Below are positions 28,137 through 42,356 of a stretch of 43,907 bases of DNA, piece by piece. Made by a program: the position numbers and the translations under genes. The stretch lies in NCBI RefSeq assembly GCF_030756675.1, contig NZ_JAVBXD010000038.1:1-43907 (forward strand). Reading direction: 5' to 3'. The notes beneath the pieces were generated by a model that was not told the DNA's origin, did not search any database, and was given only the letters and a program-made list of their open reading frames with translations. How positions within the stretch are numbered: position 1 is the stretch's first letter; every line of letters starts with the position of its first letter. This DNA is from Bacillus multifaciens. GTDB lineage: Bacteria; Bacillota; Bacilli; Bacillales; Bacillaceae_G.

Positions 28137-28157
28137 CTGAAGTAAATGAATAAGAAA

Positions 28158-28250
28158 ACACATGGGAGTTTGTGGATGCAAACTGAGAGTACGGCTAATC
28201 CGTCGTTGACCATTTGAACCTGTTGGGTAATGCCAGCGTAGGGAGAGTGT
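28158..28250 (+). promoter_or_regulatory. TPP riboswitch (thi box) upstream of thiM
   Basis: Contains the conserved aptamer elements CTGAGAG, ACC..TTGAACCTGTTGGG, TAATGCCAGCGTAGGGA, closed by P1 (ACAC with GTGT). It binds thiamine pyrophosphate and should stop expression of thiM-thiE when TPP is plentiful. A terminator follows at 28265-28298. Confidence 0.95.
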
Positions 28251-28264
28251 AAAAGCACATTTTG

Positions 28265-31683: not shown

Positions 31684-31740
31684 ATCTGTGGACAGAGAAT
31701 TATTTAATTCTCATAAAACTCCCATATCGTTCAACTCGTT

Positions 31741-31835
31741 CTCGAGAAAGGCAAACTTGTGGAAACGCAAGGTCGCAAAGCTATAGGAGCTAAGGTCAAA
31801 TAAGACTATGCTAGCCAGTTACCGGACTGATAGGG
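31741..31835 (+). promoter_or_regulatory. c-di-GMP-I (GEMM) riboswitch
   Basis: Core elements of the GEMM-I aptamer are in order: AAAGGCAAAC, a stem closed by a GAAA tetraloop (CTTGTGGAAACGCAAG), GGTCGCAAAGC, then GCTAAGG...TATGCTAGC forming the tetraloop receptor stem, and CCAGTTACCGGA. It should bind cyclic di-GMP (3',3'-cGAMP variants exist; the base next to CAAAC here is G). A strong terminator follows as expression platform, but no gene follows on this strand for 1.3 kb. Confidence 0.9.
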
Positions 31836-34258: not shown

Positions 34259-34267
34259 GAAAACGAA

Positions 34268-34360
34268 TTGAAACAGGGGAGCCTATGTGGCTGAGAGGAT
34301 GTAACAATACATCGACCCTTAACCTGATCTGGATAATGCCAGCGTAGGGAGTTGTATCAA
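34268..34360 (+). promoter_or_regulatory. TPP riboswitch upstream of thiamine transport operon
   Basis: Very good match to the thi box: GGGGAGCC, GGCTGAGAGG, ACCCTTAACCTGATCTGGAT, AATGCCAGCGTAGGGA, closed by TTGA/TCAA. It should repress the downstream transport genes when TPP is abundant. Confidence 0.96.
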
Positions 34361-34398
34361 GAATCGTAGCGACTGTTATTCTATGATAACTTGTATAT

Positions 34399-38466: not shown

Positions 38467-38499
38467 ATAGAATAAATGTATAATTTTTGTTTATTCTAT
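38467..38499 (+). promoter_or_regulatory. TATAAT box flanked by a 10-bp inverted repeat
   Basis: ATAGAATAAA (38467-38476) and TTTATTCTAT (38490-38499) are exact inverse complements that bracket TATAAT (38479-38484). The TATAAT is the likely -10 of the ABC-F leader, though a -35 is poor. The repeat may be an operator or a weak stem ending the nuclease transcript. Confidence 0.4.
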
Positions 38500-38536
38500 A
38501 TACAAATAATAATTTATAAAGAGGTGAAAGGATAAG

Positions 38537-38575
38537 ATGACTTTATCAACTGTTCTTCAAATGGTTTTGGCTTGA
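38537..38575 (+). CDS. 12-codon leader peptide of the ABC-F gene
   Basis: The frame encodes MTLSTVLQMVLA and stop. It is preceded by GAGGTGAAAGGA, a strong ribosome site. It lies about 200 bases before an ABC-F gene, and its last codons and stop overlap RNA segment 1 (TGATAAGG) of an attenuator. This is the layout of leaders on which antibiotic-stalled ribosomes control resistance genes. Too short to have a function as protein. Confidence 0.6.
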   Translation: MTLSTVLQMVLA

Positions 38576-38694
38576 TAAGGGAGTAGTCTGCCCAATTTTT
38601 GAGTAAAAGCCAACCGAAAGACAGTAGATAAAGAACCTTATTCCTTTTTTACGATAATAATTTGTAATGGATAAGGTGTGTTTGCCTTATCCAT
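38563..38694 (+). promoter_or_regulatory. Attenuator with alternative RNA pairings
   Basis: Four complementary segments: 1, ATAAGG (38575-38580); 2, ACCTTATTCC (38635-38644); 3, GGATAAGGT (38669-38677); 4, CCTTATCC (38685-38692). Pairing 1:2 leaves 3:4 free to form the terminator; pairing 2:3 would prevent it. In addition GGTTTTGGCTT at the end of the leader frame can pair with AAGCCAACC (38607-38615). A ribosome held on the leader would cover segment 1 and favour readthrough. Confidence 0.6.
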
Positions 38695-38698
38695 TTTT
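38666..38698 (+). terminator. Leader terminator before the ABC-F gene
   Basis: ATGGATAAGG pairs perfectly with CCTTATCCAT around TGTGTTTG, then TTTTA. It ends about 80 bases before the ABC-F start codon. Confidence 0.85.
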
Positions 38699-38779
38699 AC
38701 GTTTAGTAAATTGAATATTGTTTTTTTTGTACTGTTCTCTCGTTTGGCTTTAGATGTAAAGCGAAAAGGAGAGAGTAAA

Positions 38780-40318
38780 ATGAGTATGTTATCAGTTGAA
38801 AATCTTACCCATATGTATGGGGATAAAATAATCTTTCAAAATATTGATTTTCGATTACTTCGAGGTGAGCATGTTGGTCTTGTAGGGAGTAACGGAGCAG
38901 GGAAATCGACGTTACTGCGTATATTAGCGGGAGAGTTACTTCCTGATGAGGGGACGATTGAGTGGTTTCCTCATATGAAGATTGGTTTTTTGCAGCAACA
39001 TATCGATTTGCAGGCCGGCACAACGATTATGAAGTATTTACAAAGCGCCTTTGCCAGCTTGTACGATACCGAGAATAAGATGCTACAAATAGCGGAGAAA
39101 ATGGCAGCAGGTGATAATCTTGAACAATTGCTAGTGCAATACGGAGAGCTGCAAAGTGCACTAGAGCATTCTGACTTTTATCATATTGAGGAAAAAATCG
39201 AAATGGTCGCTGCAGGATTAGGAATTTTAGAACTTGGGATGGATCGTGATGTGGAACAACTAAGCGGCGGTCAACGAACAAAACTGTTGTTAGGAAAATT
39301 ATTATTAGAAGAGCCGCATGTTTTGTTACTTGATGAACCAACAAACTACCTTGATAACGTTCATATTGAATGGCTTATGGGGTATTTGAGAAATTACGAA
39401 CATGCTTATATTGTCGTTTCGCATGATGAAAGGTTTTTAAATGAAATTACGAATGTTATTTATCATTTAGAATATAGAGGGATGAAACGCTATATCGGTA
39501 ATTATCAAACATTCCTAACAAACTATGAGCAAAATAAACAGCAATTACAAGTAGCGTATGATAGGCAGCAAAGAGAAATGGAAAGACTAAAGAATTTTAT
39601 TCAAAAGAATAAAGTTCGTAAAGCGAAACAAGCAAAAAGTCGTGAAAAAGTGTTAGCAAAAATCAACCAAATCGGAAAGCCAACTTCTGCGCTGCAACCG
39701 CGTTTTATGTTTCAGGTGCATTTTGATTCTGTTAGCCGAATTTTAGAGACGAAAAATATGCAGATTGGTTATAAAGAGCCTTTATTCAGCCCAATTGATT
39801 TACAAATAAAGCGCGGTGAAAAAATTGCGATCGTCGGTTATAACGGGATCGGGAAAACAACAATGTTAAAAACATTGCTTGGGTATTTGCAGCCTTTAAG
39901 CGGCACGGTGCAAATAGGAGAGCGAGTAAACCCGGCTTATTTTGCGCAAGAAGAATTCGCCACTGAGCAAACACCGCTTGAGGAAGTATGGTCACTTCGG
40001 CCGGATATGACGCAAAAACAAATTCGGCAATCATTAGCAAGGTGTGGTTTAACAGAAGAGCATATTTTGCAGCCGCTTTGCTCTTTAAGCGGCGGGGAAC
40101 AAACGAAAGTACGTTTATGTGAATTAATGTTAACAGAAAGTAATGTACTTGTTTTAGATGAACCGACAAATCATTTAGATGTTCGGGCAAAAGAAGCGCT
40201 TAAGCAAGCTCTTATGGAATATGAAGGCACGATTTTGCTCGTTTCTCATGAACCAGATTTTTATGAAGAATGGGTGACGCAAATTTGGACGGTACAAGAT
40301 TGGTGTAAACGCGCTTAA
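38780..40318 (+). CDS. ABC-F ATPase, YfmM-like, possible antibiotic resistance factor
   Basis: 512 residues, two ABC domains and no membrane segments, so an ABC-F protein acting on the ribosome. Domain 1 has GSNGAGKST (about 36-44), LSGGQRTK and DEPTNYLD. A charged linker of about 80 residues (about 240-320; QQREMERLKNFIQKNKVRKA) follows. Domain 2 has GYNGIGKTT, LSGGEQTK and DEPTNHLD. It resembles B. subtilis YfmM. ABC-F factors rescue ribosomes stalled by drugs or nascent chains. The frame is open to 38678 through the terminator; the ATG at 38780 with AAAAGGAGAG upstream is the start. Expression is probably controlled by the upstream attenuator. Confidence 0.92.
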   Translation: MSMLSVENLTHMYGDKIIFQNIDFRLLRGEHVGLVGSNGAGKSTLLRILAGELLPDEGTIEWFPHMKIGFLQQHIDLQAGTTIMKYLQSAFASLYDTENKMLQIAEKMAAGDNLEQLLVQYGELQSALEHSDFYHIEEKIEMVAAGLGILELGMDRDVEQLSGGQRTKLLLGKLLLEEPHVLLLDEPTNYLDNVHIEWLMGYLRNYEHAYIVVSHDERFLNEITNVIYHLEYRGMKRYIGNYQTFLTNYEQNKQQLQVAYDRQQREMERLKNFIQKNKVRKAKQAKSREKVLAKINQIGKPTSALQPRFMFQVHFDSVSRILETKNMQIGYKEPLFSPIDLQIKRGEKIAIVGYNGIGKTTMLKTLLGYLQPLSGTVQIGERVNPAYFAQEEFATEQTPLEEVWSLRPDMTQKQIRQSLARCGLTEEHILQPLCSLSGGEQTKVRLCELMLTESNVLVLDEPTNHLDVRAKEALKQALMEYEGTILLVSHEPDFYEEWVTQIWTVQDWCKRA

Positions 40319-41758: not shown

Positions 41759-41771
41759 ATGAGGTGCAATG

Positions 41772-42356
41772 ATGAGAAAAAGTGCTGAAGAAATTAAAAG
41801 AGAAATTGCTTATAAAGCAGAACAATTATTTTCAAAAACAGGGTATGCAGCAACATCTATGGAAGACATTTGTGAAATTACTGAGCGAAGTAAAGGTAGT
41901 ATTTACTATCACTTTAAAAGTAAAGAAGAATTGTTTTTATTTGTAGTGAAGCAGCATACGTACGATTGGTTGGAAAAATGGGCAGAAAAAGAAAAGCAGT
42001 ACCAGACAAGTACAGAAAAGTTATATGGCCTTGCTGAATATTATGTCGAAGATGTCCAAAATCCAATTTCTAGTACAATTGAAGAATTTCTAACGAGTCA
42101 AGTTGTAAGGAAAGATATAATGGATGAAATGATCGCCTTAACTCGTGAATCGTATAGCATTTTTAAGAAGCTAGTCGAAGAAGGGATGGCATCAGGTGAA
42201 TTTCGCCAAGACGATGTAAATGATCTTATGTACGTTGTGAACGGTCTGTTAGCTGGGCTTGGACCATTATATTATGAAATGAATGCAGAAGAAATGACAC
42301 GGATTTATAAAAAGGCAATTGATGTTTTATTACAGGGAATGGCAGCTGGATCGTAA
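41772..42356 (+). CDS. TetR/AcrR-family transcriptional repressor
   Basis: 194 residues. The N-terminal TetR DNA-binding domain (about 8-55) has AEQLFSKTGYAATSMEDICE and the recognition part SKGSIYYHFKSKEELF. The C-terminal helical ligand domain is variable. ATG codons lie at 41769 and 41772; the second has better distance from GAGGTG. It should repress itself and the MFS exporter gene downstream, both of which carry the same operator, until an unknown small molecule (often a drug) binds. Confidence 0.92.
   Translation: MRKSAEEIKREIAYKAEQLFSKTGYAATSMEDICEITERSKGSIYYHFKSKEELFLFVVKQHTYDWLEKWAEKEKQYQTSTEKLYGLAEYYVEDVQNPISSTIEEFLTSQVVRKDIMDEMIALTRESYSIFKKLVEEGMASGEFRQDDVNDLMYVVNGLLAGLGPLYYEMNAEEMTRIYKKAIDVLLQGMAAGS

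Follow-up and report, generated by a model that had tools for sequence, protein, structure and literature searches.

Ahead of the gene for a 512-residue ABC-F protein in Bacillus multifaciens lies a short RNA leader that is probably a two-layer ribosome-sensing attenuator, acting on transcription and on translation. The stretch analysed, called the window below, is 43,907 nucleotides long (assembly GCF_030756675.1, contig NZ_JAVBXD010000038.1, positions 1 to 43,907) and carries on its forward strand (+), in this order, a 12-codon frame, a terminator-like hairpin (38666-38698) and the ABC-F gene (38780-40318). Comparison between genomes argues that the leader is a real and widely kept attenuator of known design: the peptide core, two mutually exclusive pairings, the terminator-like hairpin and the link to the gene are all kept by sequence, and the same leader stands before transporters of the major facilitator superfamily (MFS). 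Its strongest signal is an exchange of partners: one strand, segment 2, can pair either with the peptide-coding stretch or with the one predicted to hide the Shine-Dalgarno (SD) site of the ABC-F gene.

Leader peptide and a proposed exchange of RNA partners

The 12-codon frame with a ribosome site that an earlier note had read from this DNA is present. The frame MTLSTVLQMVLA (38537-38575, together with its TGA-TAA stops 38537-38578) follows the purine tracts AGAGG/AAAGG at 38520-38531, the ribosome site of the leader peptide, and its coding stretch doubles as RNA segment 1. The window leader matches the covariance model R1 at 90 bits, a score given by construction, the model including this leader. 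Across 40 leaders (L146, near-identical to L145, was omitted from the peptide table), the peptide shows the core M-x-x-S-(V/T)-V-(L/F), with Ser4 in 32/40, Val6 in 37/40, Leu or Phe7 in 36/40 and Ala12 in 35/40. All four TCN codons are used at codon 4 and all four GCN codons at codon 12, the entropy of the third position being 1.53 against 0.82 and 0.34 for the other two at codon 4, and 1.60 against 0.55 and 0.45 at codon 12. Third-position variation is highest at codons 4, 6, 7, 10, 11 and 12. These patterns indicate that the short frame is kept at the peptide level, as a ribosome-mediated attenuator demands; the same bases are also constrained by RNA pairing. The length of the peptide ranges from 8 codons (L097) to 22 (L099), and is mostly 12.

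The region 38510-38785 has a folding energy of -82 kcal/mol, where shuffled sequences average -52.7 (z -6.5, 0/200 shuffles). Its main stem joins nearly the whole peptide-coding segment (38541-38575) to segment 2 (38598-38632) at -24.5. The core of segment 2 (38605-38629) also complements segment 5, and this alternative pairing (with 38728-38752) reaches -23.1. Segment 5 itself (38732-38752) is the putative anti-SD arm of a second stem (38732-38778, -17.6 to -18.8) which encloses the ribosome site AAGGAG of the ABC-F gene (38766-38771).

Whether partners fit each other better within a leader than between species was examined by permutation over 17 of 27 leaders, picked to thin near-copies and with two MFS loci excluded, kinship being otherwise uncorrected. 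Both pairings of segment 2 stand out, with z -7.4 for the peptide segment and z -7.2 for segment 5, neither being equalled in 20,000 permutations; the pairing of segment 5 with the SD site gives z -4.0, and that of the leader SD site with its own anti-SD strand z -3.0. In the window the latter pairing (38520-38531 with 38635-38650) has an energy of -10.3, no better than with the partners of other species (-11.3). Five of the six control pairings lie between z +0.4 and -1.6; the sixth, segment 2 with the 5' arm of the terminator, reaches z -2.7, segment 2 as cut there overlapping the anti-SD stretch. In the stem, two-sided changes were found in 6/21 pairs of a MAFFT alignment of 14 leaders (0/500 shuffles) and in 14/21 pairs over 28 leaders (1/500), with a score of 0.305 against 0.187 (0/500) in the latter alignment, which was fitted to the model. 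Over 27 leaders, the duplex of segment 2 with the pre-SD region has a mean energy of -35.1, compared with -23.9 when the partner is taken from another species; relative to shuffles, this duplex is weak in L098, L111, L095 and L106 (z -1.6 to -2.6). Over the 17 leaders, the covariation thus favours two mutually exclusive pairings, one of them with the peptide-coding segment, a pattern left unsupported in the MFS leader L099.

This exchange is absent from the earlier note and is much better supported than the pairings drawn there, in which a strand at the leader stop codon (38576-38590) pairs with 38631-38648, or the strand 38634-38644 pairs with the terminator arm 38668-38678. Both can be drawn, at -10.0 and -11.0 respectively, the first with no compensating change (z 0.3) and the second, in which 38634-38644 would act as an antiterminator strand as well as leader anti-SD, with weak covariation. 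The note had staked its reading on conservation of both the leader frame and the complementarity in relatives: the frame is kept, and the first pairing is the part that lacks compensation. The predicted intrinsic terminator at 38666-38698, described earlier as a perfect 10-bp stem, is found by hairpin scan and by folding, with a hairpin (38666-38695) of 13 pairs by scan, 11 of them in an unbroken Watson-Crick run, instead of ten (dG -15.6 to -16.1). Its T run counts five T, two of them inside the stem; a simple terminator scan gave 1 site against 0.3 expected. Terminator-like hairpins were predicted in 26/27 leaders and in L098 none, by a script run without a chance control. The general claim of a ribosome-sensing attenuator, in which a kept leader peptide and a terminator lie ahead of an ABC-F gene, is supported.

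Directly after the stop codon, a GGG/CCC hairpin with a U-run (38579-38600, GGG..GAAGTCTGCCCATTTT, helix 4) may serve as a pause hairpin. It is paired in 96.4% of the cells for 28 leaders and ranks with the best-kept parts of the leader, down to the letters of its loop, a conservation explained neither by coding nor by the exchange of partners. Neither the window leader nor the leaders at 12 relative loci gave a match at the gathering score of any Rfam 15 family; matches to ncr1241, RT-14 and mir-29 lay far under theirs and were rejected.

Distribution of the leader and place of its ABC-F proteins

Relatives found by contig search numbered six, none of them titled as B. cereus group, and conservation was compared in other Bacillota. 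When 299 genomes of one order were searched with the DNA, 74 matched, chiefly in the gene; in ten of the 74, the peptide and stem portion of the leader matched as well, at 72-90% identity. G135, G078 and G100 gave short matches to other stretches of the leader query. A BLAST comparison of the fetched loci brought in L001 (Pseudalkalibacillus decolorationis DSM 14890), L027 and L029. The covariance models R1, built from 14 aligned leaders, and R2, from 28, extended the set: R1 matched in 16/397 genomes of the order of G082 and in 9/299 of the class of G003, R2 in 9/26 genomes of the family of G338 and in 2/338 of the phylum of G004, these samples overlapping and the large searches using stricter filters. 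In total, the leader stands at 36 ABC-F loci, the window included, and at 5 MFS loci; the weakest counted are L147, L149 and L150 at 39-40 bits. One further match, L152 (43.5 bits), was excluded from the counts, its downstream gene being unclear. Antisense R1 matches, such as 38546-38638 on the minus strand of the window, were dropped because the stem is nearly self-complementary, and were kept out of the alignment by the E-value limit; another alignment, with four antisense rows among its members, was left unused. Searches of phage and plasmid DNA gave short matches to the leader only (E 0.3-0.9), and a protein search of viral contigs found no relative.

The MFS genes preceded by the leader are in G338 (L098), G041 (L099), G768 (L144), G763 (L148) and G1073 (L151), and all five products match Pfam MFS_1. 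The transporter of L151 comes nearest to the macrolide pumps, with 132 bits to Mef(A) for a cut-off of 675, those of L098, L099 and L144 match Mef models at 21-59 bits, and that of L148, unlike these four, has no match to Mef models; the leader thus precedes transporters unlike one another. In G338, G768 and G763 a second copy of the leader is found elsewhere, before an ABC-F gene.

The window ABC-F carries the ABC domains and the ABC-F linker (Pfam ABC_tran, ABC_tran_Xtn) and passes NCBIfam NF000355, ribosomal protection-like ABC-F, with 414 bits for a cut-off of 380, this being a broad model which other ABC-F proteins of G082 also pass. None of the named antibiotic-resistance ABC-F families (Vga, Msr, Lsa, Sal, OptrA, CplR, CarA and others) was passed among the best 25 of 196 matches, where those of NCBIfam scored 159-307 bits against curated cut-offs of 680-1450. 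By sequence, its best structurally solved relative is YbiT. A tree of 65 proteins took in 22 of the 25 leader-bearing ABC-F proteins known at that point, the other three being truncated or split in the retrieved DNA. In it the leader-bearing proteins are separated by a branch supported at 100/97 from 22 leaderless ones, a group which we take to be YfmM-like, B. subtilis YfmM itself standing outside the comparison. The earlier label of YfmM-like is near the mark, but the tree places the window gene outside the YfmM-like clade. That the leader-bearing proteins form a clade of their own with respect to the outer rows is more weakly supported, at 87/43, with an SH-like approximate likelihood ratio (SH-aLRT) of 95 in a quick tree.

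Since the tree set had partly been found through the leader, a search by protein only was made in 398 genomes, 82 of which matched at 1e-175, and the best 30 loci were examined for the leader. It is present in 12 of the top 15; two others, L125 and L126, fall in the leaderless clade, so that 12 of 13 members of the leader-bearing clade carry it, compared with 0/17 loci examined in the leaderless YfmM-like clade. The remaining member, L115 (G589; ABC-F 73% identical), has the usual peptide part replaced by a His-rich frame (MNRTMPNQLHQLHHHHKQR). By eye, this frame has a terminator-like hairpin of its own, and the terminator and SD stem of the ABC-F gene seem to be kept; no Rfam match was found at gathering level in its upstream region, and it is perhaps a case of a swapped sensor. 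Two loci hold damaged genes: L006 (Bacillus sp. MUM 116) has a broken ABC-F relative matching in several pieces, one with a stop, and in G265 (L029, L070) some 4 kb separate the two pieces of the leader-bearing ABC-F, as if by insertion.

A promoter scan gave no excess (5 sites, 5.1 expected). Behind the ABC-F gene, the third likely gene is a frame of TetR-like appearance (41769-42356) and the fourth an MFS transporter resembling TIGR00900 (42421-43623), before which R1 detected no copy of the leader. Two TPP (thiamine pyrophosphate) riboswitches (28152-28261 and 34265-34367) and a c-di-GMP-I (cyclic di-GMP) riboswitch (31740-31826) score above the Rfam gathering level elsewhere in the window.

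Modelled stalling and competing explanations

In the mechanism we favour, the leader peptide would, at rest, be made and released, its coding segment would pair with segment 2 and the terminator would form, and in the transcripts that run further the stem of segment 5 would keep the ABC-F ribosome site shut. A drug-bound ribosome would stall no later than codon eight or nine and free segment 2, which could pair with the emerging segment 5 and open the site, while the freed strand beside segment 2 could hinder the terminator; the ABC-F protein would then protect the ribosome. What we infer is that a ribosome stalls, where it does so, that a drug is the cause, that the terminator is averted, that the ribosome site opens and that resistance follows; that a drug induces the leader is likely.

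Stalling was modelled by blocking 32 bases around codon 8 and folding at equilibrium, over 27 leaders. The block raised the mean exposure of the SD site from 0.24 to 0.43, compared with 0.28 for control blocks placed elsewhere. In transcripts ending before the 3' arm of the terminator, a stall at codon 9 holds the 5' arm upstream more often, from 0.53 to 0.80 in the window and from 0.40 to 0.56 as a mean of 26 leaders (the hairpin of L001, mislocated in the run with the completed terminator, was set by hand for this one). The trigger named in the earlier note, a ribosome stalled on the stop codon, was rejected: in the cut transcript of the window it leaves the antiterminator unchanged, at 0.53 before and after, and the mean of 26 leaders is then 0.42.

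Several observations weigh against the favoured mechanism. In the equilibrium model the SD exposure of the window itself stays flat upon stalling, at 0.23, so that such folding fails as proof of switching here; no response is seen either in L107, L098 and L099, and it is reversed in L097, L110, L104 and L095. The completed terminator is left unmelted in 25 of 26 leaders, L023 being the sole responder, with 0.90 before and 0.89 after in the window; as it is stable at equilibrium, antitermination, if it occurs, would need to act kinetically. The covariation of the antiterminator pairing, between the anti-SD strand and the 5' arm of the terminator, is weak (z -2.8, 65/20,000). Of the two MFS leaders examined, L099 departs from the rule for segment 2 and the pre-SD region (-14.3, z +1.8) and L098 is weak for segment 2 with segment 5 (z -1.8); this lack of support for the SD-side pairing slightly lowers our confidence in the mechanism. 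The third-position excess is absent at codons 2, 3, 5 and 8 over the 40 leaders, so that only part of the peptide shows clear selection, and the clade member L115 lacks the peptide. The C-terminal half is missing in several leaders, near relatives included, as in MILSTVLLRD of L103-L105, whose ABC-F proteins are 73-74% identical to that of the window, which would put the likely stall no later than codon eight or nine. The strongest evidence is comparative rather than energetic.

The contrast between the two layers bears on a sub-case of the same explanation, a purely translational attenuator in which the hairpin at 38666 would be a constitutive partial terminator. The exchange that would open the SD site covaries strongly and the antiterminator weakly, the terminator is stable upon stalling at equilibrium, and for cplR it is stalling on the upstream open reading frame (uORF), and not premature termination, that is described as essential for induction (PMC10201436). 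The cut-transcript model with a stall at codon 9 nevertheless holds the terminator arm of the window upstream, and both layers are reported for vmlR (PMC9226507) and tlrB (PMC6851288), so we regard this restriction to translation as a sizeable but lesser possibility. The same switch could also work with no drug at all, a peptide that is hard to translate being relieved by the ABC-F protein itself in a housekeeping self-feedback. The kept hydrophobic core of the peptide and the housekeeping type of the nearest clade would suit such a loop. It is hard to reconcile with the leaders before MFS genes in five genomes, since one leader before a ribosome-protection-type gene and before pumps favours a response to drugs. 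A leaderless paralog, also present in 10/13 leader genomes, and a patchy occurrence of at least 13 clade members in 398 genomes, the protein cut-off missing divergent ones, speak against it too; we judge it improbable.

Two further explanations do without a drug-bound ribosome. A riboswitch-like leader, whose stem would bind a small molecule or a protein, is suggested by the kept post-stop hairpin with its loop letters and by the lack of an Rfam family match, but an aptamer does not explain why third positions vary at several of the leader codons, and we consider it very improbable. An amino-acid attenuator responding to a shortage of charged tRNA for Val, Leu or Ser draws on the frequent Val6, Leu/Phe7 and Ser4; the peptide has no run of a single amino acid, however, and of the 42 leaders 41 precede ABC-F or MFS genes, the gene behind the 42nd (L152) being unclear, which makes this reading the least probable of all. 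The two-layer attenuator sensing a stalled ribosome is then the explanation that we retain as probable.

Relation to known leaders and significance

The design resembles that of known systems. The vmlR leader of B. subtilis (Takada et al. 2022, PMC9226507) is described with a uORF in the first stem, an intrinsic terminator and an SD-hiding stem before an ABC-F gene, the freed strand being predicted to open the SD stem, with attenuation of both transcription and translation. It differs by its uORF, the tripeptide MIN, and by the ABC-F clade, the present leaders having the core M-x-x-S-(V/T)-V-(L/F) and also preceding MFS genes; none of the leader peptides found here is of the MIN type, the sequence comparison with vmlR covering the peptide. 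The tlrB/yxjB leader of B. subtilis (PMC6851288) likewise combines a short leader peptide with a terminator and an SD-hiding stem; it controls an rRNA methyltransferase, and pausing, which we infer for the present leader, is reported there as demonstrated. In msrDL and mefAL/mef(E)L (PMC10314930, PMC4335068), short peptides likewise stand before an ABC-F gene and an MFS pump, and MsrDL (MYLIFM) is hydrophobic, as is the present peptide. There, however, mefA and msrD form one operon with two different leaders, whereas here one leader family occurs at separate places, and msrDL is described as transcriptional attenuation with a stall at the stop codon. The ABC-F resistance genes cplR, vmlR2 and lsaA also follow uORFs, which are MR(I/M), MK(L/Q) and MAGN, and belong to other ABC-F types (PMC10201436).

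Among earlier surveys, Naville and Gautheret 2010 (PMC2965389) report leaders of ABC genes in bacilli, one of which precedes a gene with no known specificity. Murina et al. (PMC6723617) place YfmM among the ABCF subfamilies and read a patchy presence inside genera as pointing to a resistance factor. Searches of the open-licence PMC literature brought up no description of such a leader ahead of the present ABC-F clade. The design is thus known from vmlR and tlrB, and the peptide, the RNA family and the set of genes differ.

A wider reading, to which we give slightly less than even weight, is that the ABC-F clade beside housekeeping YfmM, of which no account as resistance factors was found in that literature, is an inducible resistance family, and that its leader encodes a new drug-dependent arrest peptide, a portable sensor set before ABC-F and MFS genes in several lineages of Bacillota, whose inducer may be a drug with no known sensor. 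One sensor before two unlike kinds of gene predicts a shared inducer. If true, this reading would extend the drug-sensing leaders by one family and set a probable resistance clade next to a group regarded as housekeeping, and the leader could help to flag other genes belonging to that response.
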